The notes under the pieces: generated by a model
The model's database searches: none
What the model was told of the DNA's origin: nothing
Seen by the model: only the letters and a program-made list of their open reading frames with translations
IMG/VR virus record: IMGVR_UViG_3300009786_000020
Location: 1-50,843 of that record
Length of the DNA: 50,843 nucleotides
Source of the DNA: a virus
Direction: 5' to 3' (one strand)
Translations under genes and position numbers: made by a program
Part shown: one piece after another, positions 1-50,843 of the stretch
How positions within the stretch are numbered: position 1 is the first letter of the stretch
Layout of the letters: each line of letters opens with the position of its first letter

Positions 1-163
1 AGACCTATCAATACCCATCAATCTAGCCTTCCATTAAATGCAAATGGAGTTAATGGTTATGGTTATCAATATGATACTTATGACGAAGGTCAAGATGTAT
101 ATGGAATGAGTTATGGTCATAGTAAACATTATAATAATGAATATAAAGAATATGTTGATTTAG
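1..163. repeat. Left copy of 163-bp terminal overlap
   Basis: Bases 1-163 are repeated at 50681-50843 with three substitutions: at window positions 72 (T here, C there), 76 (A/G) and 88 (G/A). In the reading frame of the JAMM protease these are one silent Tyr change, Thr to Ala, and Gly to Ser. The repeat lies inside a coding gene that reads through it in frame. It is best read as the overlap of a circular or circularly permuted genome assembled from a slightly mixed population, not as a true exact terminal repeat. Confidence 0.9.
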
Positions 164-432
164 ATTCTGTTCCTGAAGTTATCATGGATAGAGCTTTAAA
201 GATATTAAATTCATTATTAGATGAATGTTATGATTTATCAGCTGAGAGAATTGAGAGTAAACAAGCTCTTGACATATGGAGAAAGAAAATCCAAAGTGTT
301 GAAAAGCTTGTGAAACCTCATGGACTTGGTATTCGTGAATATAAAACAAGTAAAGCATTAAGTCATGCGTTGTATACGTTATGGCCTGATGATTTCTTTT
401 ACGAATTGAAGAAGGAGACTTCTCTTGTCTGA
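1..432 (+). CDS. JAMM/JAB protease, C-terminal part (continues from window end)
   Basis: Frame 1 is open from the first base and continues the protein that starts at 50132; joined across the circular junction it is 326 residues. This half lies outside the JAMM core. It has a Gly/Tyr/Asn-rich linker (GVNGYGYQY and following) and then a helical tail with many charged residues that ends at TGA 430-432. An internal ATG at 106 could be mistaken for a start, but it lacks a ribosome site and splits an otherwise continuous frame. The stop overlaps the TTG start of the E1-like gene by 8 nt, so the two are translationally coupled. The tail may bind substrate or partner; its function is not recognised. 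Confidence 0.85.
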   Translation, partial: RPINTHQSSLPLNANGVNGYGYQYDTYDEGQDVYGMSYGHSKHYNNEYKEYVDLDSVPEVIMDRALKILNSLLDECYDLSAERIESKQALDIWRKKIQSVEKLVKPHGLGIREYKTSKALSHALYTLWPDDFFYELKKETSLV

Positions 433-1087
433 TATTAATCTTAGAAGCAGTGGAATAACTGACGATTTGAAAGATTATCGATATCATATATTGGGTTGCG
501 GGGCTATAGGTAGTTCCGCAGCTTTTCAATTAATAAGGATGGGTGCGTCCTCATTGACCTTATATGATATGGATAAAGTTGAAGTTCAAAACGTTGGAGT
601 GTCAAGGTATATCTTGTCAGATATTAATAAACGAAAAGTAGATGCTCTCTCTGAGCATTTAATGTCAATTAATGATACTGCAGATATAACTAGAGTGCGG
701 GGAAAGTTCAAGACTTTCAGAACCACTTTAGATGATAAAGATATCGTAATATTAGGATTCGATAACATGCGAAGCAGGTTGAAAGCTGCTAAAGAATGTT
801 TTGAACGTAATAGTAAACCTTATCTTTTAATAGATGGAAGGATGGGAGCAGAGCAGTACCAGCAATATACTCTGTTAAACCCATCATTAGAAGCCTATAA
901 AGCTACTTGGTACAGTGATGCAGAAGGTGAATCAACACCATGTAACGCAAAAGCTACAAGCTATTGCTCAGACATGGCAGGTGCGTTTATTACAAATGCA
1001 GTAAGAAAAGTTTTGACGGACAATCCAGTTCCTCAAGAGTTTTATTTTGATTTTCCATCTTTTGTTCTTGCAAGAGTAGTTAATTAG
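425..1087 (+). CDS. E1/ThiF-like adenylating enzyme
   Basis: Predicted to adenylate the C-terminal glycine of a ubiquitin-like protein and carry it as a thioester. The 220-residue protein is one Rossmann-type ThiF/E1 domain: glycine-rich loop GCGAIGS at 24-30, acidic YDMD at 47-50, Arg61, and the GFDN motif with Asp114. Two cysteines sit in the crossover segment STPCNAKATSYCSDMAG (C173 and C181); C173 fits the position of the E1 catalytic cysteine. It lacks the CxxC pairs of MoeB/ThiF zinc forms and is near the minimum size for the family. The start is TTG at 425 with AAGGAG at 412-417, overlapping the end of the JAMM protease gene. The neighbours (beta-grasp modifier, E2-like, JAMM) make a conjugation role more likely than cofactor synthesis. 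Confidence 0.9.
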   Translation: MSDINLRSSGITDDLKDYRYHILGCGAIGSSAAFQLIRMGASSLTLYDMDKVEVQNVGVSRYILSDINKRKVDALSEHLMSINDTADITRVRGKFKTFRTTLDDKDIVILGFDNMRSRLKAAKECFERNSKPYLLIDGRMGAEQYQQYTLLNPSLEAYKATWYSDAEGESTPCNAKATSYCSDMAGAFITNAVRKVLTDNPVPQEFYFDFPSFVLARVVN

Positions 1088-1164: not shown

Positions 1165-1344
1165 ATGTCAAGTAATGATAATGAAATCTGGTTAGCGATA
1201 GAAACAATATCTAATAGAGTAAGTGAATTAACTGCTCTAGTAGGTATTATTTTAGATGCCCCAGTATTAACGAAAGTAACCAACGTGGAGGAAGTATATG
1301 CCGCTGACGAAAGTAAAGAGGAAGCCAAAGAGCTTGAATCCTAA
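1165..1344 (+). CDS. Small acidic protein, 59 aa
   Basis: ATG 1165 is preceded by AAGGA at 1154-1158. The product starts MSSNDNEIWLAIETISNRVS and ends in a Glu/Lys-rich stretch (ESKEEAKELES). A short helix of alternating hydrophobic residues (IWLAIETI and ELTALVGIIL) could pack as an amphipathic helix or dimer. It overlaps the start of the Sak4-like gene by 47 nt, so it belongs to the same transcript. The family is not recognised. The good ribosome site and tight spacing support a real gene. Confidence 0.6.
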   Translation: MSSNDNEIWLAIETISNRVSELTALVGIILDAPVLTKVTNVEEVYAADESKEEAKELES

Positions 1345-1981
1345 AATAACACTTCTATATGGAGCCCCTAAAGTAGGTAAATCTACAGTATTAAGTCAAT
1401 TAGATAGTTGCTTAATATTAGATACTGAAAATGGCTCTGATATGTTAGGAGGTTATATAGACAATATTAACAGTAGAGAAGAACTCTTAGAGTTTTATAA
1501 ACTCGCAAAAGAGGGGCATGAGTATAAGTATTTTGCACTTGATACTGTCGATAAGCTTGTTGAATGGATAGAGAAGTCCATATTAAAAGAATACCAAATA
1601 GAATCAATTAATGATTTACCTTATGGCAAAGGATTTGGTTTAGTAAGAAGCAAGGTACTTAATCATATAAAGAAGTTGTCTTCTTTAGTACCTCATCTTA
1701 TCATCGTAGGACACCGTAAAACTGCAGTAGCTATTGATAATAGTACCGCTATTGAACCGGAATCCCTTGATATTTCAGGTAAGTTAAAAAATATGATTAT
1801 GGCTGCATGTGATGCAATAGGTTACGTCTTTAGAGATGAAGAAGAAACTTTAATGGTATCGTTTAAGTCAGGGCTTGCCCTAGAGGCAGGCAGTAGATGC
1901 GCTCACTTAAGAGGCGAAATATTCCCTTTTAATTGGGATTTAATATACAAGAAAGAAAAAGAGAAAGCGAGTAAAAAGTAA
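1298..1981 (+). CDS. Sak4-like RecA-fold ATPase (recombinase)
   Basis: A 227-residue P-loop ATPase with Walker A GAPKVGKST at 22-30 and a Walker B-type strand YKYFALDT ending at Asp82. A strand ending LIIVGHRK follows as a candidate sensor. Size and motif layout match the AAA_24/Sak4 group of phage recombination proteins, short Rad51/RecA relatives that promote single-strand annealing together with an ssDNA-binding protein. The next gene, overlapping by one base, has the features expected of that partner. The C-terminus is lysine-rich. ATG 1298 has GGAGG just upstream. A role in recombination-linked replication is inferred from the family and from the primase-helicase two genes downstream. 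Confidence 0.8.
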   Translation: MPLTKVKRKPKSLNPKITLLYGAPKVGKSTVLSQLDSCLILDTENGSDMLGGYIDNINSREELLEFYKLAKEGHEYKYFALDTVDKLVEWIEKSILKEYQIESINDLPYGKGFGLVRSKVLNHIKKLSSLVPHLIIVGHRKTAVAIDNSTAIEPESLDISGKLKNMIMAACDAIGYVFRDEEETLMVSFKSGLALEAGSRCAHLRGEIFPFNWDLIYKKEKEKASKK

Positions 1982-2595
1982 TGGCTATATTTAAACCAGA
2001 GATGAAAAGTTCAGGTGGCGGTAATAAATTTATGGGTGTATGTGAAATGGGAATATCTAGTTTTGTAGATAAATCCGCTGAGTTTGATTGGTGTGACTTA
2101 CTGTTAGAAGCAGAAGTTCATCTTAAAGATTCAGAATACCCTAAACGGTTAGCTATTAAAGGTGATTATGAAAAAGATGCAGAAGGTAATATCAATGGTG
2201 GCTATGTTTTAAATCGAATGTATCGATTCTTTGAAGCCATTGGGTGTACTGCAGGAATTAATCTTAAGGGAGAATTTGAAACCTCTGAAGGAGATGTAAT
2301 CCCAGATATTGCTCAATATCTAAATGATAATCATACAAGCTCAGGTATCCCTGGAACTACTCCAGAATTAACCCATGTAGGATATGTATATAAACGTCAA
2401 AATACTAAAACTAAAAAAGTATATACTGAAGTTTATACACGTTTATACCCTAATACTGAAAAGGGTAAAACTGAGTTAGAAGAATACATTAAATGGATGA
2501 AAACCAACAATTATCTCAAAGAGTATACTGAAGTTGGTGGTGACAAAGATGGTGACGGAGTAACTGTAACAGCTGAAGCTGACAGTAACTTTTGA
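1981..2595 (+). CDS. Putative ssDNA-binding protein
   Basis: A 204-residue protein whose ATG overlaps the preceding stop (TAATG). It has a compact beta-rich body with the segment VLNRMYRFFEAIGCTAGINL and then an acidic C-terminal tail (VGGDKDGDGVTVTAEADSNF). This resembles the phage proteins commonly found directly after Sak4-like ATPases and annotated as ssDNA-binding; an acidic tail is also typical of SSBs. No canonical OB-fold motif can be proven by eye, so the call rests on position, the tail and general resemblance. Confidence 0.55.
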   Translation: MAIFKPEMKSSGGGNKFMGVCEMGISSFVDKSAEFDWCDLLLEAEVHLKDSEYPKRLAIKGDYEKDAEGNINGGYVLNRMYRFFEAIGCTAGINLKGEFETSEGDVIPDIAQYLNDNHTSSGIPGTTPELTHVGYVYKRQNTKTKKVYTEVYTRLYPNTEKGKTELEEYIKWMKTNNYLKEYTEVGGDKDGDGVTVTAEADSNF

Positions 2596-4430
2596 ACTAC
2601 GTTGAAATTGCTATTAAGACCCCGTCTAGTCGCGGGGTTTTAATTCCTAAAGCAAATATTAAAACGTTTATCAAAACTGATGAGCCTCTATATCGTTCTA
2701 TGTATACCTATGATGATGAAGCTAAGAACTTCGTTGACGACAAGGGGAGTATAAAGGATTATTATGGCACCAGAAGTATTGACAATGTGCTTATCGATAT
2801 TGATAGGAAAGATAATAGTGACCAATTCACCTTAGATAAGGTAAAGGGATTACTGTTTGAATTAGAAGATAACTTCGAAGTAAATCCTATGAAATCTGCT
2901 CAAGTATATTTTAGTGGAAGTGGTTATCATATATCATTACCTGGAGGACTGTTTAACTTTACAGATTCGCCAGACTTACCATTCTTTGTGAAGGCCACTA
3001 TGGATTCATTGTTTGATGGTATAGATTTAATGATATATATGAGACCTGGAATTTATAGAGTTCAACATACTGTTAATTTAAAGACAGGGTTGTATAAAAT
3101 TCCACTTACTTATAAGGAAGTTCATACATTAACTCCTGAAGCTATTCAAACTTTAGCAAAAGGGCAAAGGCTAGATTATCCTTATACTGAGCTTTTATCA
3201 GATGGGGAGCTAGAGGATAGAGTAATTAAAAATGCTCCTAGAATCAAGCAATTTAAGGCTGTGGCAGAGCCTATAAATATGGTGCCTTGTGTTCAGAAGA
3301 TGTTAACTGCTGGGCCCAATGAGGGGAATCGAAATAACACTATTATGCGTATAGCAAGTCATTTTAGACGCCATGGTATTCCTAGTGAATATGCCAAGGT
3401 TTCTTTATTGCACTGGAATAACAATTCTTTAAATGAAGAAATAGTTATTAATAAAACAGAGCAAACGTATGATAGGGGGTATAAATACTCCTGTAATGAC
3501 CCTTTAATGAAAGAAAATTGCAGAACAAACTGCATATTCTTTAAACGTAAAGATTACGATGTGGAAGTCAAAGATGCTTTAACGTTACAAGAAGAATACA
3601 CAAATAGGTTGGCAACTGACTTTGCTGGACGAACACTTAATTTAGGTGGGATGCTTGGCTTAGATAATAATACAGATGCAACTATATATCCTGGTGAACT
3701 AGTGACTATCTTTGGACCTACGGGCTCAAATAAAACAACATTAGCTCAGAATATAGCTTTAGGTGTAGATATGGTAAATGATTGTATCCGAACTGAATGG
3801 CAAATACCCACACTCTTCTTATCATTAGAATTAAGTGGTTGGTATATGCATCGCAGACATTTACAAATAGTATCTGGATTAAGTAAGGATGAGATTAATG
3901 TGTCTCCTGATGAAGTATTTAAATGTCATGAAGGCGCTCTTAGTCATATGAATATCCAAACTATATCTCCAACCTTAGACCAAATAAGAAAAAAAGTTCA
4001 AGAGTTACAACCGGCTGTTGTGGTAGTAGATTATATTGATTTAGTTGAAACACCTCCTCATATAAGAGGAGAATATGAACAAATTAAGTATATCTCACAT
4101 ACATTGTCAAATATGGCAGTGAATATGGATATTATAATTATACAAATATCACAAGTAGCACGAGAGTACTCAAGAAATGATGTTTTAGACCTCTATGCTG
4201 GCAAGGGTTCTGGAGCAATTGAAAATGCCAGTAGAAAAGTTATTGGCCTACAAGGACAAGCAAATAGTGACATCAAGAATGTTGAAATGTTCAAGAATAC
4301 TGATGGTGAACTATTTAAAGCTCAGGTCCAATGGAGGCCAAGCTTTAGATTGCGAAGGACTTATAATGACGACAATGAAGAAACGAGTGTCAAGAAGCCA
4401 AAAACTGCTAACGCATTTGCTCAGCGGTAA
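2592..4430 (+). CDS. AEP primase fused to DnaB-type helicase
   Basis: A 612-residue replication protein that would make RNA primers and unwind the fork. The N-terminal half is an archaeo-eukaryotic primase. NVLIDIDRKD gives metal-binding Asp69 and Asp71, FSGSGYHISLP (107-117) is the sGxGyHi nucleotide motif, and RVQHTVNLKTGLYKIPL is the third motif. A cysteine module follows (C233, then C301, C310, C314 in SCNDPLMKENCRTNC), as in PriCT/PriL-like regions. The C-terminal half is a RecA-fold SF4 helicase with Walker A GPTGSNKT at 375-382, Walker B VVVVDY ending near Asp480, and a QISQVARE sensor. The TTG start overlaps the previous stop and lacks an obvious ribosome site, implying coupled translation. 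No DNA polymerase gene accompanies it, so host polymerase is presumably recruited. Confidence 0.88.
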   Translation: MNYVEIAIKTPSSRGVLIPKANIKTFIKTDEPLYRSMYTYDDEAKNFVDDKGSIKDYYGTRSIDNVLIDIDRKDNSDQFTLDKVKGLLFELEDNFEVNPMKSAQVYFSGSGYHISLPGGLFNFTDSPDLPFFVKATMDSLFDGIDLMIYMRPGIYRVQHTVNLKTGLYKIPLTYKEVHTLTPEAIQTLAKGQRLDYPYTELLSDGELEDRVIKNAPRIKQFKAVAEPINMVPCVQKMLTAGPNEGNRNNTIMRIASHFRRHGIPSEYAKVSLLHWNNNSLNEEIVINKTEQTYDRGYKYSCNDPLMKENCRTNCIFFKRKDYDVEVKDALTLQEEYTNRLATDFAGRTLNLGGMLGLDNNTDATIYPGELVTIFGPTGSNKTTLAQNIALGVDMVNDCIRTEWQIPTLFLSLELSGWYMHRRHLQIVSGLSKDEINVSPDEVFKCHEGALSHMNIQTISPTLDQIRKKVQELQPAVVVVDYIDLVETPPHIRGEYEQIKYISHTLSNMAVNMDIIIIQISQVAREYSRNDVLDLYAGKGSGAIENASRKVIGLQGQANSDIKNVEMFKNTDGELFKAQVQWRPSFRLRRTYNDDNEETSVKKPKTANAFAQR

Positions 4431-11500: not shown

Positions 11501-14500
11501 AGGATTCTTATCAGCAGTCTCTCCTTCAACTGGTATACCAATCTCTTTAGCTTTTTCAGCAACCAAATCTTTCTCAGATTGCTTTTCTACAGCCTTTAAT
11601 TCTTTATCCATAGGCTGCTCCCATGTAGATGAGAATTTATCATTAAATGCACCTATGTGTTCCTTAGCATTTACTACGTCTATAGCGTTACTTAAGAATC
11701 CTAGCTTAGACATAGATGTTTTCGCAGCTTCCATATTAATTGCATGTATAGCGTCAAGAGTTACTCTGCTGAGTTTCTTATTAGAGTACATAAATTGTTC
11801 TAATGCTTCAACATTCCCTTTACGTAAACTACCAAGCATTAAATGGTCATATAGACGTCTACCTTCAGGTGTAAGCTGAGTTTTATAATCTCTAATTCTA
11901 CTATCAATTTCAACTTGGTCAAGTGAAGCTGACTGTTGACCAGATACTTTTTTATTAATCTCTTGGATTATCTTCTTGGCTTCAGCATTATTAGTTTCTT
12001 TATAGATTTTCTCAACTCCAGCCTTAACCTCTGCTTCAAAGTTTATCCAATCTGGGTCATTCTCTTCAATCTCAGTTAACATATCCTTCATTTGATTTCT
12101 TTGCTTATTTTTAAGCCAAGATAAATCCTTTAGTGCTTCTACATGTCCAAAGATTTCAGCTACCTGCTCCTTAAAGTTCATTCCAGTTGCATTATATAAT
12201 TTACCACTTTCCTTGCCAGTATTTAGAGCATCCTTGACAAGTTCTACAGTAACCATATCAGTTAAATCATTTATTAGATAATCTTCTGCTAGCATATTAA
12301 GCCCAGATAACATTTCTTTACGCTTCTTAGTACCCTTTTCACCAGCTTCTTTAGCTATTCTTAATCCATAATGGTCAGTCTCATAAGGAGTACCTTTTAT
12401 CATCCGCATAAAACGTTTATAAGTTTTAGCTGCATGCCTTAATCCCTCAGGAGTATGTAAGTCATTTTCCTTAACTCTCACAATGTAATCAGACATAACG
12501 CTTTTTAATGAGGAACGTCCTAATAAAGTCTTCATCCATTTTAAATCTTCAACATTACTATCAAAATCAACATATAATTTGTTAAGCTGAGGCAAATCCA
12601 CTCTATTGAATATAGGGTCGCTCCAGTCTAGTCCCGCTAAGTCTACTCCGATTTTACCTAGGAAAGAGTTAAGCATCTCAGGCTTTGCTGCCAGAGAGTA
12701 TGCTCCAACTCCAAGCTCTTTGATTTCTTCCATAGAATGCTTGCGACCCTTTGACCAGTTACGACCCCAATATGCATCATTAATATCTCTAAAAGTTCCA
12801 TATACCCCAGCCTTGAGATTATTAGCAGTGAGAGCTTTTTCAATTTTGAATTTCATACCACTCTTTATTGGTACTACTCTACCTTTAACAACTTGCTTCA
12901 TATCTGCAACTTTAAAGTGAGCATTCCATAAATATTCAAACCATTCCTCTTTAGATTTTAAGCCAAGTTCATCCATTGGGTCAGAGGCTAAGCCAATCAT
13001 AGCTCTTTTTAAGTTACGTTGATGAAGCTTATCATCAGCTGTCTCTTTTGGCTTAACAGTTAGCTCTATTTCTCTATATTTATATACATCTTTACCAGCT
13101 TTATCAGACTTTACAAAATCTTTTTTACCCTTAACAGATATTCTAAATTTATCTTGCTTATCAGGGACTGCCATAATCGCATTATATGCAGCCTGCATAA
13201 TTTGAGTTGATGATGCTGCTGGACCTAACTGATTACGGCCATCTACTGCAGCTTGAGAAATACGTATTCTTTCTACAGGAGAATATTGGTATGCTTTAGA
13301 GTTATATCGTGCTTTAGCTAAGCGGTTTTTGTCATTAGCTGGTGTATCTTTAGTAATAATAAACTTAGCTAATAGTTCTCTGTATAGGGATTGCTTTTTA
13401 TGTACTGAAGCGGGAACCCTAGATTCTTTATTATCTCCAACAAGACGTCTCTTCTTCTTCCCAGTACCTTCTTCAAAATAGAACTCTTCTTTATTAGATT
13501 TATACATTTCTTTCCATGCTGGTTTCATGCCATTTTCACCGCCAAAGAATACAAATGATTTATCTCCATCCAAATCTGCTCCACCTTCAGCTCTCATAGC
13601 CCTAGAGTGAAGTAAAATACCATGGCCATCTCTACCTGTAAAACCTTTAAAATGAAGGACTTGTGCACCTGACATTGAATCCATAGGAACACGAACTGTA
13701 ACAGCATTAAAGAACTCTTCTACAGCAGCTTTAGTTTCTGGTTGTGCCTCATATTCCTTACCTTCATAATTCTTCCATAACTCACCAAGAGTTAATCGTG
13801 GATGGTCTATACCACTGATACCTGTTTTAATTTTACGCTTTGCATATTTATCATCTAAAAAGAATATCTCATCAGCATATATATCTTCACCTAAAACTTT
13901 ACCAATAGCTTTTCCACCTACTTCATCAAGCTTCTTTAACCATTTATTAGCACCATCTAAATCTGCACGTAAACCTTCGTCATATGGACGCATAACAGAT
14001 GTTAATGAGTTACCCATCTTAGGTCTAGTAGCTGACTTGACAATATAATTCTTGACAGCGGTCATTCGATAATCTCTAACATATTTATGAAGCATTGTAC
14101 CTAAAGCAGAAGCTTCCATACCCTGTTGTCGTTTATCTCTCGCCCATTCAAGAGCTAGCTTAATATGTCTACCAGTAGCATCATTCTCTTCTTCCCATCG
14201 GAGAACCTCAGCATTAAATTCTTCTTCAGTATATTGCTTATCCCTCATCTCTTCTTTAACTAAATCAAGAGACTGTTTTAATATCTTCTGATACACAGCA
14301 GCTGATATCTGCTCAGAATGATTAGCTTGTAATAATCCAATAGTCTCAGCGATACCTAATTTGTCAAGGTCTTTTAGTATTGCATTTTGTTCTTTGACAA
14401 GTTCAGTGCCTAGTGCGCCATCTTTACGAGCAGCTATATATTTTCTTGCATTTTCATTAACAACTGCATCACCTGTCATGCGTTCACCTATAATAGATGA

Positions 14501-17500
14501 GTACATCTCATTAATTACATCAGGGTCAAGCTTTCCCCAACTTAGTGGCATCAATGCAGTAAATAATTGTTTAGGGATGGCCTGGTCTTCTAGCATATGC
14601 TTACTCTGCTTAACAGAAAAGTTACCCTTAACCTCAGAAGGTAGTAAGTGATTTAACTCAGAGTTATGTATATTAATTTCACCATTTTCAATAGAGTATC
14701 TACCAACTTTACGCGTACCTAATTGCTTGACAGCAGATTCCTGCATAATCATATGTAAACCTTTAGCCTTCATCATCTTAGACATCTCTGGGCCAACAGT
14801 ATGGAACATAAATTTGCCTAATAACGCTCCTTGAGCTTCAGATACTACTGTACCATCACTTCTGGTCGTATATTTAGGATTCCTTGCTACAATAAATGAT
14901 TTATTTTGCCCTGAATGAGGCATACCAAAGTCTTTATTCATCCCATCAACTACTTCTTGAGTTACTAGAATTGCACCGTCTACATTTTCTGATAATTCGG
15001 TGGTTTTCCTTATAGTATCCCAAGAATAAAAGCCATCTTTAGCCATGGCATCTTCAACTTCTTTAGACAAGTCTCGTGCAATTATATATTGATAGCCAAG
15101 TTCACCTTTAGCATTTTCTACTAATGGCTGCTTACCACGACCAACTTGTTCAACACCATCAGCATCTATATAAGTTTTATTTAATTCCTTAGCCATAGCT
15201 ATTCTATCACCAGGATATGAGTTTGTGAACCATATTTGTCCACGCTTATTAAAGCCAGTTGAGTTCTTTATAAAACCCTTATTTGTCATTAGGAGCTCTA
15301 TATTAGCCCTTGTAGGCTCTAACCTATTCAAGGCAAGGTCATACATCACATTGGACCAAAACGAGCGTTTAAAGGAATCTAAGGCTTCTGTCTTTGTTAA
15401 ACCTTTAAATTTGGGGTTCCCAGAGGTAAAGGTCTTTAGAAATTCAGCTTGAGCTTCATCCCGATATTTCTTAAAATCTTTAATCTTACTTGTGAATTTA
15501 GATAACTCTTGCCATTGCTTCTCAAAATTAAGTCTATTTGCACGCATATGTGGATGATGTTTCATCCAGATTATTCTATCATTATCACCTTTACCACCAT
15601 ACATATACCATCCACCACCACCTTTACGACGATTCCCTTTACCATCAATATAGGTATCTTTAACACCCATATACTTTATCATAGCAGATAGCTCTCTATT
15701 AAATTCCCCCTTACCTACATCATCAAGCTCTCTATACCTACTTAACTCATAATCTCTGTATTGCCCTTCTTCCTTGCGACTAATATGGTCAAGTATCCCA
15801 TATACAGTTTCTTCTGGTCTGCCTGTGAGTTCATGGTGGACATCCTCAATAATCTTTAATGGCTCTCTCATATCTTTTCTAAGTCCAGATAAGCTAGTCT
15901 GCCTGTTCTTCGACTCAATATGCATTATGCGGCCAGGAGTAGCTCTAAAGTGCTTAACAGGTATACTTTGATTAAACATAGTAACCCATTGTCTTAGTTC
16001 TGCTATAGCTTCATTCTTACCAAGCAAAGAGACACCTATATCTTCTTGTATGTCATTTATAATTTGGTCAACTTTATTAAGTTTAGACCCCTTTTCAACA
16101 TGCCTCTGAAAAATCTGTTCTATTTGTTGGATAATTTTAAATCGTGTTGCATGTACATCTTCAATACTAGTAGCACCCTTAGTCCAAAGTTCTTCTGGCA
16201 TATGATTTCTAGTAAACCATTCAGCTTTTAATCCAGGTTGTATCATAGAGATATCATCTGCTGGTATATCGGCAAGTTCAGCTCTTAATAAGGACTCATC
16301 ATGAATCTTAACTTCGTCACGATAGCTTAGTTCAGTTTCTAATTCTTCTTGCTTATTCTCCAAAGTACGTTCTCTTAATACATAAGTATCTAATTCAGCC
16401 GTAGCTTCTTTGAGCTTTCCAGATGCTTTGGAATCAAGTTCAAGGTCAATAGCTTCGCCAAATTCATCCTTATTAGACTCTAGTTCATCATGGAGTTTTT
16501 CTATACTATCATCTAATTTTTTAATTTTCTTCTTAACTTTATCGAGGTCTACTTGCTCTTCTTCAGTAAGTATAGAGCGTTCATTAAACTCAACAGCTTC
16601 ACCAGACGCTTCAAGCTCTGCAGCTCTACGACCCTTTAAGCTTTCCAGCATTTGTGTATAATGCTCTCCCCATAAGGGGTCCTTACTAGGTACTCTAATA
16701 TTACCAGCGCTATCAACAGCATTAGAAAAATCTCTATCTGCATCATATTTCTCAGCCATTATTTCAGAAAGTAATTCTTCTCTACGAGCCCTACCAATAG
16801 TCTTAACACCCTTTTCAGATTTTAATCTATTATTAACTTGCCATCCAGTAAGCTTAGTATAACCCTCACGATATTCTCCTGTTTTCCATGCTTCATAAGC
16901 GCCTGAAATAGTTTTAAAATGCTTACCTCTAAACTTAAAGAAGGACTGGTCAAAGGTAGACAGCTTCATATTTGTTTTACTGCCATAATCTACATAAGTA
17001 GTCCTACCAGTAGAGCTAGCTTTCTTTAAATCTAATGCTGCATACTTTGCAGTTTTATTTAGATTCTGTGCAAAGAACTCTTCTATTGCTCTTACTGCCT
17101 GAGGGTCTTTAATAAACTTACCGCTAGATGTTTCTCTTCCAGGATTGCCAAGTCCAGCTATTATTTTAGGCGGTCTTTTTGGCATTCCTTCTATTGGATT
17201 GAACCTACCAGAGCCTCTAGAATATTGATGCCATTTCTTAGTTCCTAAATCATATACAAATGTAGGCTTCTTCATATCAAGAGCCATTTGCACGCCCCAT
17301 TTAGCTTTACCCTTAACTTGAGTGAATGAAGGACGAGCCTTTGCCCACTTGCTTTTATTAGATGCTTCAGCAAACTCACCGACAGCATATACAGCTTCAG
17401 CCCTGTTCACTAGGTAGTATTGTTTTCTAATATTATTTAATTGGAATCTTGAACTATAATCTGTATTTTGTATTAGATTATTTAGATTAGCGCCAAGTGA

Positions 17501-18868
17501 TTCATTAGCAGCTTTTATAGCTCTATTAACATGTGGGGATTCTAACTCACTAGGCTGTAGATTGATGCCAAATACATCAGGCCCAGTGTTCTTTTTTTCA
17601 CCAACTTGCTTATATGAAAAGGGTTTATAACCATACTCTTTACCTTGGTTAAGCCAAGTAGCTTCTGTATTTGGACCAGCTCCAGATAATATCTGCAGAC
17701 TAGGCTCCTTTTCTAATACAAGACGCTTCTCACCCTCTATATATTCTTCAGTCGTTTCCATACCAGCTATCTTTTTGGTCTTCTTATCAACTTGCCATAG
17801 TTGGTCAGTTAATTTAGATAACTCATAACCAGCAGCTAGATTTTCAGCATTCTTGCCATAGCGCTTTGTTATTTCTTCTTTAAGTATAGGCTTTACTTGT
17901 TCAGGTAATTCCGCATAACCTTCCATAGTTTCAGGGTCTTTAAGCGTATTAACATAATCTTCCATACTTTCTTCTTTAGTCTTCTCAATTTTGCCTAATT
18001 CTTTTCGGGCTCTATGTCGAGCCCAACTAACCTCATTACTACCAAAGTAAGCTCCCATCATATATTCATACACCTGTTCTGGTGTAGTAGCCCCATGCAT
18101 TGTTGATGGGAGTCCCATAAATAATGACCCAGCTAATCCTCTAGCAAGTTTAGTTCCCATAGGATTATCCATCTTAAGATGATTCCCTATTAGTCTAAAT
18201 ACTCCTCCTGCTTGAGCTCCACCAATAAATCCTTGAATCATTTCATCAACACCGCCTTGCCAAGAAGATACACCAGATGCTACACCTAAATGGAATGCTC
18301 CTTCAACAATATGCTTTGCTTTATTGCCAAGGAAGAAGTTTGATACTTCTTGAACAGCACCTTTTCTTGATACGGTACTAGCTTTAGCGGCTCTTGTAAA
18401 TATTTTTGAAGTTTCTTTAGTGACCCTATCTGCAACAAGCATAGGGATTGATTTAATAGCACCTAGTTTATTAGCAGCATGCACCAATGATTTAGCTTGC
18501 ATTGCTTTTCCAAGTACATTTAAAGGCTTAGCAAGCATACCTGGAACAAACCCAGACAAGTGTCCTATATTACGAGCGACTGCTTCATATTCATTATCTG
18601 GATGGTCAGTTACATTAAGAGTAGTAAAGCCTTCAATAAAGCCGCCACCAAACTGCTTAATAGCTTCTGTTAATTGAAATTCACCCTCATAAAATGTCTT
18701 ACCATAGTACTCTGCATGTTTCTTTATTCTATCAATGTCTTCATTTGAAAAACGTGAAGGAGTCTTATCATAAACATCCATTATACGGGCAAGAGCTGAT
18801 TCTGTCATCTCTGGCTTCCATTGTTGCTGTTGCTGACTGGGTTCTGCTACTCGACCTTGTGGTTCCAT
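8558..18868 (-). CDS. Giant virion protein with two-barrel RNA polymerase core, 3436 aa
   Basis: The longest gene and the last of the late unit. The middle carries GADLDGDK, with the three aspartates at 1765, 1767 and 1769. It is preceded by RVPMDSMSGAQVLHFKGF from 1726 and a strand, turn and GILLH segment. This mirrors the second double-psi beta-barrel of multisubunit and crAss-like phage RNA polymerases (RxPT..S, then DxDGD/DxDxD). About 390 residues upstream, MIMQESAVKQLG (Glu1377-Lys1381) resembles the start of the first barrel. Flanks: an N-terminal hydrophobic, Gly-rich region (IKQFGGGFIEGFTTLNV), a long charged coiled coil near 770-860, and a C-terminal domain with TRFQLWGWN and a hydrophobic helix (IDIFVLALANMFAYSLF). 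Position after ejection-type proteins suggests injection with DNA, as for N4 vRNAP. Polymerase activity is inferred, not shown. Confidence 0.7.
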   Translation of the reverse strand: MEPQGRVAEPSQQQQQWKPEMTESALARIMDVYDKTPSRFSNEDIDRIKKHAEYYGKTFYEGEFQLTEAIKQFGGGFIEGFTTLNVTDHPDNEYEAVARNIGHLSGFVPGMLAKPLNVLGKAMQAKSLVHAANKLGAIKSIPMLVADRVTKETSKIFTRAAKASTVSRKGAVQEVSNFFLGNKAKHIVEGAFHLGVASGVSSWQGGVDEMIQGFIGGAQAGGVFRLIGNHLKMDNPMGTKLARGLAGSLFMGLPSTMHGATTPEQVYEYMMGAYFGSNEVSWARHRARKELGKIEKTKEESMEDYVNTLKDPETMEGYAELPEQVKPILKEEITKRYGKNAENLAAGYELSKLTDQLWQVDKKTKKIAGMETTEEYIEGEKRLVLEKEPSLQILSGAGPNTEATWLNQGKEYGYKPFSYKQVGEKKNTGPDVFGINLQPSELESPHVNRAIKAANESLGANLNNLIQNTDYSSRFQLNNIRKQYYLVNRAEAVYAVGEFAEASNKSKWAKARPSFTQVKGKAKWGVQMALDMKKPTFVYDLGTKKWHQYSRGSGRFNPIEGMPKRPPKIIAGLGNPGRETSSGKFIKDPQAVRAIEEFFAQNLNKTAKYAALDLKKASSTGRTTYVDYGSKTNMKLSTFDQSFFKFRGKHFKTISGAYEAWKTGEYREGYTKLTGWQVNNRLKSEKGVKTIGRARREELLSEIMAEKYDADRDFSNAVDSAGNIRVPSKDPLWGEHYTQMLESLKGRRAAELEASGEAVEFNERSILTEEEQVDLDKVKKKIKKLDDSIEKLHDELESNKDEFGEAIDLELDSKASGKLKEATAELDTYVLRERTLENKQEELETELSYRDEVKIHDESLLRAELADIPADDISMIQPGLKAEWFTRNHMPEELWTKGATSIEDVHATRFKIIQQIEQIFQRHVEKGSKLNKVDQIINDIQEDIGVSLLGKNEAIAELRQWVTMFNQSIPVKHFRATPGRIMHIESKNRQTSLSGLRKDMREPLKIIEDVHHELTGRPEETVYGILDHISRKEEGQYRDYELSRYRELDDVGKGEFNRELSAMIKYMGVKDTYIDGKGNRRKGGGGWYMYGGKGDNDRIIWMKHHPHMRANRLNFEKQWQELSKFTSKIKDFKKYRDEAQAEFLKTFTSGNPKFKGLTKTEALDSFKRSFWSNVMYDLALNRLEPTRANIELLMTNKGFIKNSTGFNKRGQIWFTNSYPGDRIAMAKELNKTYIDADGVEQVGRGKQPLVENAKGELGYQYIIARDLSKEVEDAMAKDGFYSWDTIRKTTELSENVDGAILVTQEVVDGMNKDFGMPHSGQNKSFIVARNPKYTTRSDGTVVSEAQGALLGKFMFHTVGPEMSKMMKAKGLHMIMQESAVKQLGTRKVGRYSIENGEINIHNSELNHLLPSEVKGNFSVKQSKHMLEDQAIPKQLFTALMPLSWGKLDPDVINEMYSSIIGERMTGDAVVNENARKYIAARKDGALGTELVKEQNAILKDLDKLGIAETIGLLQANHSEQISAAVYQKILKQSLDLVKEEMRDKQYTEEEFNAEVLRWEEENDATGRHIKLALEWARDKRQQGMEASALGTMLHKYVRDYRMTAVKNYIVKSATRPKMGNSLTSVMRPYDEGLRADLDGANKWLKKLDEVGGKAIGKVLGEDIYADEIFFLDDKYAKRKIKTGISGIDHPRLTLGELWKNYEGKEYEAQPETKAAVEEFFNAVTVRVPMDSMSGAQVLHFKGFTGRDGHGILLHSRAMRAEGGADLDGDKSFVFFGGENGMKPAWKEMYKSNKEEFYFEEGTGKKKRRLVGDNKESRVPASVHKKQSLYRELLAKFIITKDTPANDKNRLAKARYNSKAYQYSPVERIRISQAAVDGRNQLGPAASSTQIMQAAYNAIMAVPDKQDKFRISVKGKKDFVKSDKAGKDVYKYREIELTVKPKETADDKLHQRNLKRAMIGLASDPMDELGLKSKEEWFEYLWNAHFKVADMKQVVKGRVVPIKSGMKFKIEKALTANNLKAGVYGTFRDINDAYWGRNWSKGRKHSMEEIKELGVGAYSLAAKPEMLNSFLGKIGVDLAGLDWSDPIFNRVDLPQLNKLYVDFDSNVEDLKWMKTLLGRSSLKSVMSDYIVRVKENDLHTPEGLRHAAKTYKRFMRMIKGTPYETDHYGLRIAKEAGEKGTKKRKEMLSGLNMLAEDYLINDLTDMVTVELVKDALNTGKESGKLYNATGMNFKEQVAEIFGHVEALKDLSWLKNKQRNQMKDMLTEIEENDPDWINFEAEVKAGVEKIYKETNNAEAKKIIQEINKKVSGQQSASLDQVEIDSRIRDYKTQLTPEGRRLYDHLMLGSLRKGNVEALEQFMYSNKKLSRVTLDAIHAINMEAAKTSMSKLGFLSNAIDVVNAKEHIGAFNDKFSSTWEQPMDKELKAVEKQSEKDLVAEKAKEIGIPVEGETADKNPIAKMFANTGYEHLKEGKIDKEYSSVVSEIATILNGEGQYVKTKLNDLVRGILNKDLNAMNKQDFIALRNYLTDIKSGSIWQQMFDKDGPTKLGKRHTMLFPRAINEELMRDEIQLMEKQGMYFDYSGRAQKGTMYTPTGYIGKLQNFIGRAMEEATNIGDEFVSDLKERMLFLGDIPQGEALRQIAVAQRNALQGKIIEKEDKKAAMGYFKRRSDTEAAHNWPKLKVREFVVDTPDGRKRMTGEEVVKRINDAYTSYFSEFHAFIKGNDRALDDWTVTDMNIDKGEVPMVDVKSFLKHLETQWMGNKTDKAFWTNIGNDGVRRVARTMMAGMMKKDPKIRAAFLRQPHAETGKIDYEAYWPHMMFDRVEAKKAKEAELKKIMETPDSEMTQKQRNEALAKLMYKYKAVDGEWPTQDLEEWNVSEEIVKEISAKKKVKDDLIDYFNPDERSGAMNNRITHMEGWTMDEAAVDTYTRSTVQSYFKQLGQIFSKQTIEEMGRGMYKKWGPEQTDAWQTHAKLYAQDALGNPSNIPQKIYDNPVMKIKGTPYGWWADNRVRDRINKMMDKIGVTNMELPENMRGIDLQQVRHLSNLEAQFEMASLLAHPKSMIANIFGGTTHTIQSAGWKNFLDARNPKVLMKINPELKTMADVDKFVIQQGVFPDFLIHDFGLSKEFQTAKNKSFIEDISRKLTRDPELSEQTVRDIAIKSNIPKKLMEFAAKFMSVPERAIRRDAFMAHYLQTWRKFGGAFERFDHPFLIEMAKKGVKATQFLYSATYRPAFARTALGKVMTRFQLWGWNAVRFRKDVMKEASIYGLIPGTASYEKFTRMAQIDIFVLALANMFAYSLFDNTLPAPWNWMQDTADWVFGDEQERNKAFFGAYPRPVAPLQVISPPILRMIAPSIRAMVDDDWSRVAEYHAWTMFPFGRMAKDEFGKNNIIDNPIGAMNKVTGIPLVGLHKEAQKRKEGAYKDDMVYPGSYKK

Positions 18869-47785: not shown

Positions 47786-48019
47786 ATGTCTAGTAATTCA
47801 GATAGCAAGGTTATAAACCTCTATATTCAAGGTGTTACAGGGTTCGCCCAACCAACAGAAGTTAAAGCAAACACGGTACGTGAGTTGCGAGCTGATGAAC
47901 GTTGGACCCTCGAAGGTCACATCGCAGTAAATGGCATTGTTGCCACAGACGATACCGTTATTGAAGAAGGTAACGACGTCGCACATCACATTACCAAGAA
48001 TACTGGTGGTGCGGCATAA
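47786..48019 (+). CDS. Ubiquitin-like beta-grasp modifier, 77 aa
   Basis: Predicted to be conjugated or activated through its C-terminal glycine. The fold pattern is MoaD/ThiS-like: first strand pair (KVINLYIQGVTG), a short helix (TVRELRADERW), the hallmark HIAVNGIVATDDTVIEEGND of the sulfur-carrier/ubiquitin group (VAVNGxxVxxDTVLxxGD), and a last strand leading into a flexible tail KNTGGAA. Gly74-Gly75 is followed by two alanines, so the diglycine is masked and must be exposed by a protease. The JAMM protein in the same cassette is the obvious candidate. The ribosome site AAAAAGGAGA is strong. Sulfur-carrier function is less likely given the E2-like and JAMM partners. Confidence 0.8.
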   Translation: MSSNSDSKVINLYIQGVTGFAQPTEVKANTVRELRADERWTLEGHIAVNGIVATDDTVIEEGNDVAHHITKNTGGAA

Positions 48020-48289
48020 CATCCGAAAAATGTTAATAGGTAACAGATTTAATATTACACTCATAACTACTATGTTTTGCACGCAGAGTGTCACGAACTA
48101 ACATCAAATCTTAATATAGGTGCAATATCCTTGAAAGATGCGCTGAGTACTCACGACCACAGCTAGGCCACTTCCTCTGGTAGTCTCGACTAATACTAAA
48201 TCATTCAGGTTCATAATTCCAGGGCGCTAGTTCCAGTAGGAGCAGCCGAAGGTTCCACCCAACGAAATAATATTGTAAAGGTAAAGAAA
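48020..48289 (+). ncRNA. 270-base structured leader between modifier and E2-like gene
   Basis: No credible reading frame. Paired blocks include AGATTT (48045-48050) with AAATCT (48106-48111), enclosing ACACTC/GAGTGT (48057-48091); the perfect palindrome TGAGTACTCA (48144-48153); and TAGTC-TC-GACTA (48181-48192). It ends with GTAAAGGTAAAGAAA (48275-48289) next to the E2-like ATG, and the same 15 bases precede the JAMM gene (50110-50124). A leader controlling the ratio of modifier to enzymes, or an internal promoter, is plausible. Confidence 0.5.
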
Positions 48290-50104
48290 ATGGAAACATT
48301 AAAAAAAGTAATAAAGTCAAATATACTACCATTTGATGGTAAACGTTATTTGTCCCATATATTTGAAAAGATAGCAACTAATATTGATAGTTATACTATC
48401 ATGTATAAAGACTTTAGCTTAAAAGGTAAAGTAATCGAAAGATTAAGAGCATTCTGTGAGTTCTTTAATATAACGCTCGAGCTTAATAATAACATGACGT
48501 TTAAAAGAGGCTCATATGCAAAAATAAAAGAAACTTACATAAACGCTAGATATCCTCACTGGTTCACTAAAAAGGGAACAAATAAGATATGGAAAATCTT
48601 TCGTCCTCCAGAAAACCATGGATATAAATTTGAGCAAGATATGATAAATATTGATGCTTCTTTAAGTAATTTAAGGCGTGATGGACATACTTTAGATAGT
48701 GATGATGATAGTACAATTAAGGAGAAATTTCAAGTATTCTTAAATAATATCAGTCAAACTAATCATCCTGATATAGAGTATGATATATCAGATAAACCAT
48801 TGGTATATTCAAGACGCTCTAAATGGGTCAGTGAATCAATAGGTAATTCTGATGCTTATATACAACATAAACAAAGGCTTGCTTATGATATTCCAACTAT
48901 AACGCTTCCATTATTTTGCAATATAAAAGTAAAATTACCGGATACTAATATAGTGTTTCATGAATCAGATGGCGGAAGTGATGTAACTGTTTATAAAACA
49001 ATAGATTGGGGCGATTTAGTTGTATATATGACCTTCCCAATTCAAACAGTTTTAGAGCATGATAATGGGTCTCGTGAAAAAATATGTATACATACAGACC
49101 TTTTTCCAAATTATCCAGGCACTATGCATCCTTTTGTTTCTATAGAATGGGGTGGATATGCACATGGTAATACTTGTTTTGGCTCTTTCCCAATAGAAAG
49201 GTTAATTCTAGAAGGTAAGCTAATGGAAGCTTTAACTCACATGCAATCATGGGCGAATAGTTATGATGTACATAGAACCTCTCCAATTAATAATGCGAGA
49301 AGAACTTATTATAGCTTGAATAGTAGCAATGGTGCTTTGTCTAATGATAGTGATTGTTGTGATACGGCGTTTCAGTATTATAAGAATGAAACTGTAGATG
49401 CTGAAGTAGTCATTCCAATTGTAGAGGCACACTTAGCTCAATTCTGTGATGATTGTATATGTTCATCTGATTGCATAATCCAAGATAGAATGCTTGAGTT
49501 TCTAACGGCAAGGAGTCCATTAGAAGACTTAGCTTTATTAGAAGATTTTGTGAGAAGAGAATGGTGCAATATGTTCCCTGAAGGTCCAGCAATAAAAGAA
49601 CAGCAATTAGAAATACTTGCAATGTTTGATACGTTTAGAAGTTATATACCTCACACTATAACAGTACGAGGAATGACTTCTGCTGCTAAGTTACTATTTC
49701 TTGATTTAAGTCATATTAAACAATCTGGCTTTGATTCTTGCATTGTAGATACATTACATAATCTACATGTTACTGACTGTATCGGTCGTGCTATGCGAAC
49801 ATCAGCACGCTTAAATTACAGACATAATATGTGTGTTGAAAATGGTACAATAGTTGAAGATATAGAACATGGACATACTATAATTGAAAGTTTAAAGGCG
49901 TATCAAGCGGCTTTAAATGTAGCTTATTTAGTTAGCTTATTGATAGTAACAGGCAAGGTGGGCTATAGTAATCTATCTGCACTTGGTGAACAATATACAA
50001 TAGGTGAATTATATAATCTCTTGTATGACTCATGTAAAACTAATGCATACATCAGTAAAATGAAAATAGAATTACCATTTCCAGATGAAGATGGTATTCA
50101 CTAA
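48290..50104 (+). CDS. E2-like conjugating protein with extra domains, 604 aa
   Basis: A large protein in the E2 position of the cassette. The core around residues 200-345 has strands (TITLPLFCNIKVKLPDTNIV; DLVVYMTFPIQTVLEHDNGS) and then FPNYPGTMHPFVSIEWGG with His280-Pro281. AHGNTCFGSF follows with Cys296, and then a helix (RLILEGKLMEALTHMQSWAN). This is the P.yP..HP....G..C...... pattern of prokaryotic E2-like folds, with Cys296 as candidate thioester site. A cysteine cluster CDDCICSSDC (C386, C389, C391, C395) may bind zinc. N-terminal 1-190 and C-terminal 400-604 are helical and unrecognised. It is several times longer than ordinary E2s (about 150 aa), so it may combine E2 with target recognition. 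Confidence 0.62.
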   Translation: METLKKVIKSNILPFDGKRYLSHIFEKIATNIDSYTIMYKDFSLKGKVIERLRAFCEFFNITLELNNNMTFKRGSYAKIKETYINARYPHWFTKKGTNKIWKIFRPPENHGYKFEQDMINIDASLSNLRRDGHTLDSDDDSTIKEKFQVFLNNISQTNHPDIEYDISDKPLVYSRRSKWVSESIGNSDAYIQHKQRLAYDIPTITLPLFCNIKVKLPDTNIVFHESDGGSDVTVYKTIDWGDLVVYMTFPIQTVLEHDNGSREKICIHTDLFPNYPGTMHPFVSIEWGGYAHGNTCFGSFPIERLILEGKLMEALTHMQSWANSYDVHRTSPINNARRTYYSLNSSNGALSNDSDCCDTAFQYYKNETVDAEVVIPIVEAHLAQFCDDCICSSDCIIQDRMLEFLTARSPLEDLALLEDFVRREWCNMFPEGPAIKEQQLEILAMFDTFRSYIPHTITVRGMTSAAKLLFLDLSHIKQSGFDSCIVDTLHNLHVTDCIGRAMRTSARLNYRHNMCVENGTIVEDIEHGHTIIESLKAYQAALNVAYLVSLLIVTGKVGYSNLSALGEQYTIGELYNLLYDSCKTNAYISKMKIELPFPDEDGIH

Positions 50105-50131
50105 CCCCCGTAAAGGTAAAGAAAGGTCTAA

Positions 50132-50843
50132 ATGAAAACTAACAATGCTGTAGTGGTCTCATCACATAGATTCTACATTAGCAAAGAAGATAAAAAGAAG
50201 GTTTGGGATTATGCTCAATCTGCTTTTGATGTATATCAATCAGAAATCACAGGAATGATGGTAGTTTTACAAGATGCCGAAGGTGATTACATAATGCAGG
50301 ACCCAATAATTCTTAAACAAGAAGTATCTGCCAGTGCGTGTGAAATTGATGAAGATGAAATGGCTATGTATACTTGTAAAATGATGTCTAAGTATTCTGG
50401 ACAAGAAGTTCGCTTTTTATGGTGGCACAGCCATCATAACATGGGTGTCTTTTGGTCAGGTACAGATGATAAAAATATCTTGGTAAATAAAACACAAGAT
50501 TTCAATTTATCATTAGTAGTTGGGTTAGATGGAGATTACTTGCTTAGGTTACAATTCTTTGAACCAGTAGAAACTTATGTTAATACTGAAATGCATGTCT
50601 TAGGTCAAGACTCAGGTGTTCCTGATGATATCACTAAGGAAGTCAAAGAACTATGTAATAAAACAACTTATGCTGTTACTAGACCTATCAATACCCATCA
50701 ATCTAGCCTTCCATTAAATGCAAATGGAGTTAATGGTTATGGTTATCAATACGATGCTTATGACGAAAGTCAAGATGTATATGGAATGAGTTATGGTCAT
50801 AGTAAACATTATAATAATGAATATAAAGAATATGTTGATTTAG
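50132..50843 (+). CDS. JAMM/JAB metalloprotease, N-terminal part (continues at base 1)
   Basis: ATG 50132 with AAGAAAGG upstream. A full JAMM zinc motif is present: Glu38 (SEITGMM), then WWHSHHNMGVFWSGTD with His99, His101, Ser109 and Asp112 (HxH, seven residues, S-x-x-D). The catalytic core covers about residues 5-150. Such enzymes remove C-terminal extensions from ubiquitin-like proteins or cleave isopeptide bonds. The modifier's GG-AA end is a natural substrate. The frame continues across the map junction to 432, total 326 residues. The copy at the window end differs from the left copy by Thr/Ala and Gly/Ser. Confidence 0.9.
   Translation, partial: MKTNNAVVVSSHRFYISKEDKKKVWDYAQSAFDVYQSEITGMMVVLQDAEGDYIMQDPIILKQEVSASACEIDEDEMAMYTCKMMSKYSGQEVRFLWWHSHHNMGVFWSGTDDKNILVNKTQDFNLSLVVGLDGDYLLRLQFFEPVETYVNTEMHVLGQDSGVPDDITKEVKELCNKTTYAVTRPINTHQSSLPLNANGVNGYGYQYDAYDESQDVYGMSYGHSKHYNNEYKEYVDL
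50681..50843. repeat. Right copy of 163-bp terminal overlap
   Basis: This is identical to bases 1-163 except for three substitutions and is read in the same frame of the JAMM gene. It marks where the circular or permuted genome was opened and shows that the underlying population is not clonal. Confidence 0.9.

Follow-up and report, generated by a model that had tools for sequence, protein, structure and literature searches.

A phage gene cassette that probably encodes a ubiquitin-like conjugation pathway

Bacterial ubiquitin-like conjugation has so far been presented as host defence, in the Bil operon and in Cap2/Cap3. Here we describe a related set of genes in a virus. The IMG/VR record IMGVR_UViG_3300009786_000020, a stretch of 50,843 bases that was analysed whole and is called the window below, carries genes for a ubiquitin-like modifier (Ubl), a protein of 604 amino acids (aa) resembling ubiquitin-conjugating enzymes (E2), a JAMM protease and a short ThiF-type activating enzyme (E1). 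An earlier note, made from the letters alone, had proposed that a complete cassette of this kind is borne by the phage, and its four open reading frames (ORFs) were all found where it had placed them, on the strand it had given. The proposal is backed by conserved linkage, invariant residues, profile matches of all four proteins to planctomycete counterparts, a structural model of the Ubl and signatures of ubiquitin-conjugating (UBC) enzymes in the 604-aa protein. We consider it probable that the phage encodes a self-contained ubiquitin-like conjugation pathway among its replication genes. Read across the joint of the contig ends, the genes lie in this order:

47786..48019, plus strand: Ubl modifier of 77 aa, beta-grasp, with C-terminal TGG/AA (family relatives, AlphaFold2 model)
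48290..50104, plus strand: E2-like protein of 604 aa (C296 in 81/81 relatives, profile match to planctomycete E2)
50132..50843, plus strand: JAMM protease, residues 1-237 (E38/H99/H101/S109/D112 in 97/97 distinct sequences)
1..432, plus strand: C-terminal part of the JAMM, continuing at 164-432, with 1-163 being the end repeat (the open frame joins)
425..1087, plus strand: short ThiF-type E1 of 220 aa, with GCGAIGS and catalytic Cys C173 (PF00899, 4.5e-24)

In the Bil operon (BilABCD), a Ubl, an E2, a JAMM deubiquitinase and an E1 are encoded in the same order, and the chemistry is presumably alike. BilA contains two consecutive Ubl domains, BilB a CEHH motif (C, with E at +6, H at +8 and H at +13) and BilD two adenylation domains, one inactive and one active, plus a Cys domain (PMC11354881). 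In contrast, the phage Ubl is a single 77-aa domain, the E2-like protein has I, R and G at those three positions after C296, and the 220-aa E1 has one ThiF domain; moreover, Bil is a host-encoded defence, whereas the present cassette is phage-encoded. The likeness to Bil drawn in the earlier note thus holds for gene order and chemistry but not for membership, which was rejected on these defining features of BilA, BilB and BilD.

The PRTRC plasmid cassette, which we take to be operon type 6d of Iyer 2006, also combines a Ubl, an E2, a JAB protein and a ThiF-like E1. Membership was rejected here too: the PRTRC_A model (14.6 bits against a cut-off of 101.8; E-value 0.018) and the PRTRC ThiF model (26.3 bits against 144.75; 4e-6) stayed far under their cut-offs, and the PRTRC_B and PRTRC_C models matched none of the cassette proteins. 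The E2 of type 6d has no His before the Cys (PMC1779556). Cap2/Cap3 of the cyclic-oligonucleotide-based antiphage signalling system (CBASS) share E1, E2 and JAB activities with the phage cassette, and Cap2 structures are found among the E1 profile matches, but Cap2 fuses E2 and E1, and its tag is cGAS itself, with no separate Ubl (PMC10097602). Lambda-type TAPI/TAPK have a Ubl domain and a JAB in common with the cassette but lack E1 and E2 and belong to the tail assembly gene cluster (PMC1779556). Both memberships were rejected on those features. Among the matches listed by PADLOC, the E1 hit generic E1-E2 models only, and there was no match for the Ubl, the 604-aa protein or the JAMM of the window. 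No phage-encoded Ubl/E1/E2 cassette was found in the open-access literature that was searched.

Conservation of the four genes in viral relatives

Only the E1 is recognised by direct family searches, and the case therefore rests on relatives; for the Ubl and the 604-aa protein, no Pfam, PHROG or NCBIfam model matched convincingly. Profile scans of IMG/VR gave 388 confirmed relatives of the E1 and 271 of the JAMM. The best 80 of each were retrieved, and iterated hidden Markov models (HMMs), started from the proteins of the window, were run on the ORFs of every locus. In 91 loci the order Ubl-E2-JAMM-E1 is found on one strand, so that the conserved linkage which the earlier note had proposed as a check is indeed present; contig ends truncate most of the remaining loci. 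Because some loci are the same contig or near-identical phages, these counts are partly dependent, and residue statistics are given for distinct sequences. Where more than 4 kb is available upstream of the JAMM (75 loci), an E2 is found in 71 and a Ubl in 69, and the four without either are from crAss-like and Flavobacterium phages. The marine-type loci with that much upstream sequence have an E2 in 71/71 and a Ubl in 69/71. Two loci (L133, L135) have an 835-aa relative of the E2 together with the JAMM and E1, with no Ubl detected. When named phages were searched with tblastn, the 604-aa protein gave no match and the JAMM only weak matches to Flavobacterium phages.

The Gly-Gly (GG) of the Ubl is invariant in 67/67 distinct sequences. 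Of these, 17 end exactly there, 34 have 1-3 further residues and 16 have longer tails, the extensions in these 50 sequences ranging over 1-126 residues. A GG with 0-3 terminal residues is found in 51/67 Ubl ORFs versus 18/1715 of the remaining short ORFs in these loci, a contrast that is partly built in because the Ubl family profile itself includes the GG. The AlphaFold2 model (predicted local distance difference test score 79) shows the strand order of a beta-grasp, and Foldseek matches it to ThiS/MoaD-type proteins, Caldiarchaeum ubiquitin and NEDD8 (probabilities 0.8-1.0, E-values 6e-3 and weaker). The ORF at 47786 can thus be taken, as had been suggested, for a beta-grasp modifier with an exposed C-terminal GG. 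In four loci (L024, L031, L042 and L057) the Ubl gene continues for more than 100 residues past the GG; such genes may be precursor fusions for cleavage by the JAMM.

The 604-aa protein has a UBC-like core at about residues 205-345, with helical regions at its N- and C-termini. The core contains HP (280-281), C296 and SPxN (331-334), and P281, C296 and P332 are the sole invariant columns among 325 well-filled ones (77 rows). Judging by the alignment, their places are those of the HPx loop, catalytic Cys and SPxN of UBC enzymes: when the core is aligned with bacterial UQ_con E2s, all three signatures stand in register, and the score is 20.1, versus a maximum of 12.8 for 60 column-shuffled controls. 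AlphaFold2 predicts the core (about 205-330) with high confidence. A Foldseek search of BFVD with the model returned six strong matches (E-values 6e-18 to 3e-13), all of them relatives with no assigned name or function, and the family profile gave noise only against PDB sequences. Behind the core lies a four-Cys cluster (C357/C386/C389/C395), kept in 70-77 of 81 rows, which may bind zinc. An assignment as E2-RING was rejected, four cysteines being too few.

The JAMM gene (50132-50843 plus 164-432) encodes 326 aa and spans the contig joint. The intact E/HxH/S/D active site reported by the earlier note is there, with its glutamate now corrected to E38, and all five residues are invariant. The match to Pfam Prok-JAB is sub-threshold (0.18), and the best PDB match of the family profile is Rpn11 of Caldiarchaeum (6fjv, 9.5e-5), which cuts its own ubiquitin precursor precisely after Gly-Gly (PMC6043591). 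The E1 consists of one ThiF domain over residues 12-203 of 220, with a Pfam match above cut-off, in agreement with the ThiF/E1-like enzyme seen at 425. Its ATP-site residues and catalytic Cys are in place (R7, D48, D50, N56, K71, D113 and C173, invariant in 103/103 distinct sequences), and its profile matches MccB, UBA6, UBA5, ThiF, Cap2 and BubCD in the PDB. Two cysteines had been singled out, C173 and C181; only the former is universal, the latter being Cys in 99/103 and absent from crAss-type E1s.

Downstream of the E1 are, in order, a Sak4-like ATPase, a 204-aa protein, a primase-helicase and an HNH endonuclease, of which two are specified here:

1298..1981, plus strand: Sak4-like recombination ATPase, directly downstream of the E1 (phrog_124, 1.6e-30)
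2592..4430, plus strand: primase-helicase (phrog_19, 3.3e-30)

A primase-helicase like that of the window follows the E1 in 80/85 loci with room for it, and the cassette does adjoin replication genes, as had been noticed. The opposite strand encodes the capsid protein (SU10-type), a P22-like portal and the terminase.

Cellular and divergent counterparts

A scan of genome contigs for the E1 gave the loci L152 and L154 from planctomycetes, as well as three contigs of crAss-like phages that had been binned as bacteria. With the planctomycete E2 as the query, relatives were found in 14/392 genomes of the phylum, Planctomycetota, with up to five copies in one. On one strand, the planctomycete loci (L152, L154 and L157-L184) encode a Ubl, an E2, a JAMM and an E1, arranged as in the phage, and their E2 has HPH(V/I)..CxG in 30/30 cases and a RING-like, Cys-rich tail. 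In profile-profile comparisons, whose E-values are pairwise, each phage protein matches its planctomycete counterpart: the Ubl with 94% probability (2e-7), the E2 with 78-82% (1e-5; core only, 91% and 9e-7), the JAMM with 95% (4e-8) and the E1 with 99.7% (8e-27). Non-corresponding pairs stay below 3%. When the phage E1 profile is run on planctomycete genomes, cassette E1s mostly score <=1e-21 and other ThiF-type proteins 1e-15 or weaker, with a few exceptions that are hits of unchecked context.

The two cassettes therefore share four counterparts, their order and a Cys-rich module behind the E2 core. They differ in that the planctomycete one is cellular and sometimes present in several copies per genome; in that its E2 is about 350 aa with a long RING-like Cys-rich tail, whereas the phage E2 has only four conserved Cys; and in that its Ubl mostly ends in EG/A rather than GG. 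The genome with five E2 copies (G001) has them on contigs C8, C13, C64, C70 and C131; four or five lie in a whole Ubl-E2(RING-like)-JAMM-E1 cassette, and one E2 match has an in-frame stop. Prokaryotic RING/E2 systems were reportedly described by Burroughs, Iyer and Aravind in 2011, and the planctomycete cassette is probably of that kind.

The search also covered 15 long contigs that have related terminases; seven of these are near-complete. Five of the seven have the E1, Ubl and E2, and the other two (G402, G405) have a much diverged E1, as does the fragment G397. The six remaining contigs, all below 47 kb, gave no match and may simply lack the cassette region. In G402, G405 and G397 another version of the four genes occupies the same place, with the same replication genes adjoining: a Ubl with NKSG close to its C-terminus, an E2 with HPHIS..C, a JAMM and an E1. 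The E2 of this version matches the planctomycete E2 HMM at 4e-5 to 1e-3. The coordinates of the divergent version are 1839-5149 in L291, 507-4190 in L292 and 2178-5673 in L293. The earlier note had held that absence of the modifier gene from all relatives that keep the E1 and JAMM would speak against its proposal; in fact, both Ubl and E2 are kept even where the E1 and JAMM have diverged.

In crAss-like and Flavobacterium phages, the JAMM (97%) and E1 (99.9%) are matched by profile, in the same order and adjoining replication genes. The Ubl match is weak (24%). Two genes before the JAMM, a protein begins with a small Ubl-like domain (KxKSG). The gene in between is the candidate E2 counterpart, unsupported by profile (0.1%) and suggested only by position and an HSH..CxG pattern. 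In crAss001, gp79-gp76 (L009, 4232-8642) are annotated as hypothetical, hypothetical, metalloprotease and ThiF; their JAMM and E1 homologues are ordered as in the window, close to a primase, and the four genes are probably a related conjugation block.

Proposed pathway and alternative readings

From the gene content, order and conservation, the invariant residues, the kinship to a cellular cassette and the confidently predicted Ubl fold, we infer the following pathway. The JAMM would trim the two residues after the GG of the Ubl precursor and later strip the tag from conjugates. The short ThiF-type E1 would adenylate G75 of the Ubl and form a thioester at C173, and the Ubl would be handed to C296 of the E2, which would link it to lysine residues of a single protein or a few. 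The helical regions at both ends of the E2 and its four-Cys cluster may bind the substrate, replacing a separate E3. The likeliest targets would be proteins of the host or the phage that function early, around DNA replication.

Several points weigh against a conjugation pathway. Foldseek of the full-length 604-aa model against the PDB gave no usable match (best E-value 1.3), which is the main weakness. The profile probabilities for the E2 are moderate and come from pairwise comparison rather than a calibrated database search. In the HP...C pattern pointed out by the earlier note, P281 and C296 are invariant and UBC signatures accompany them, but H280 is kept in only 58/81 relatives and is Phe or Tyr in 23/81; not every member of the phage family thus has the histidine of the HPN type. 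Two marine-type loci have no detectable Ubl.

Some of the same data could fit a sulfur-carrier module, in which a ThiS/MoaD-like carrier is trimmed by the JAMM, charged as a thiocarboxylate by the ThiF-like E1 and used for thiolation (of tRNA, for example), with the 604-aa protein as the sulfur acceptor enzyme. The nearest PDB sequences to the Ubl profile are MoaD and ThiS, the fold matches include those types, the E1 is a short ThiF-type enzyme, and ThiS/MoaD-JAB-E1 sulfur clusters have been described (Iyer 2006, PMC1779556). We nevertheless give this reading a small chance: the invariant P/C/P falls at the HP/C/SPxN signatures, the 604-aa protein is related by profile to HPHV..C E2s with RING-like tails, and no rhodanese, thiouridylase, sulfur-pathway or cofactor genes were recognised among the scanned proteins of the window (some small ORFs were unscanned). 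A similarly slim prospect is that the cassette is a weapon between phages, tagging the structural proteins of rivals as Bil tags tail proteins and so excluding superinfection. The four activities and their order are those of Bil, which interferes with phage assembly (Hor 2024, as cited in PMC12660748). Yet the cassette stands among replication genes, a primase-helicase following it in 80/85 loci, and as nearly every member of the group has the cassette, the virions of the phage itself would have to escape tagging.

It is distinctly improbable that the phage proteins act as a counter-defence decoy, competing for the Ubl or enzymes of a host system. Bil- and CBASS-like systems are indeed known from bacteria, and decoys from phages, but a decoy would tolerate dead enzymes, whereas all active sites are kept here over long divergence; the four genes also stay together, in the divergent version too, and nothing in favour of a decoy was found. 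Least credible of all is that the genes are chance neighbours or that motifs were over-read in the Ubl and E2. The lack of convincing family models for these two proteins would agree with it; the linkage in 91 loci, the GG invariance and the profile matches with clean controls contradict it. Since the cassette lies among replication genes with every active site kept, we favour an active role serving the phage, probably early.

A wider claim, for which the balance is about even, is that the complete conjugation pathway is near-core among the replication genes of a large group of marine phages, takes a diverged form in crAss-like and Flavobacterium phages and serves the virus early in infection through modification of host or viral proteins. 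Because different versions share one site and are related to the planctomycete cassettes that bear a RING, such systems may have in phages an old reservoir and carrier. If the pathway is real, it would lie whole in a virus, with active sites kept in divergent phages, and tagging would become a viral tool. It would also account for four adjoining unexplained crAss001 genes (gp76-gp79) and give the prehistory of the ubiquitin system a phage branch. The tag could be sought in cultured phages, namely crAss001 and the Flavobacterium Fpv phages.

Contig and locus layout

The ends of the contig overlap by 163 bp (1-163 and 50681-50843, 160/163 identical), and the contig is therefore circular or terminally redundant, with one gene split by its ends. 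At 50.8 kb it looks complete. The three mismatches in the end repeat look as if a population variant had been joined. As the earlier note had it, the last two genes of the cassette overlap: the JAMM and E1 share 8 bp, with the E1 starting from TTG at 425. Between the Ubl and E2 genes is a gap of about 270 bases (48020-48289) into which neither gene continues in frame; the spacing varies in relatives. Elsewhere in the window, the minus strand encodes a protein of 3436 aa (8558-18868), which has no Pfam match and, with its DLDGD stretch, recalls the virion RNA polymerases of N4 or crAss type.

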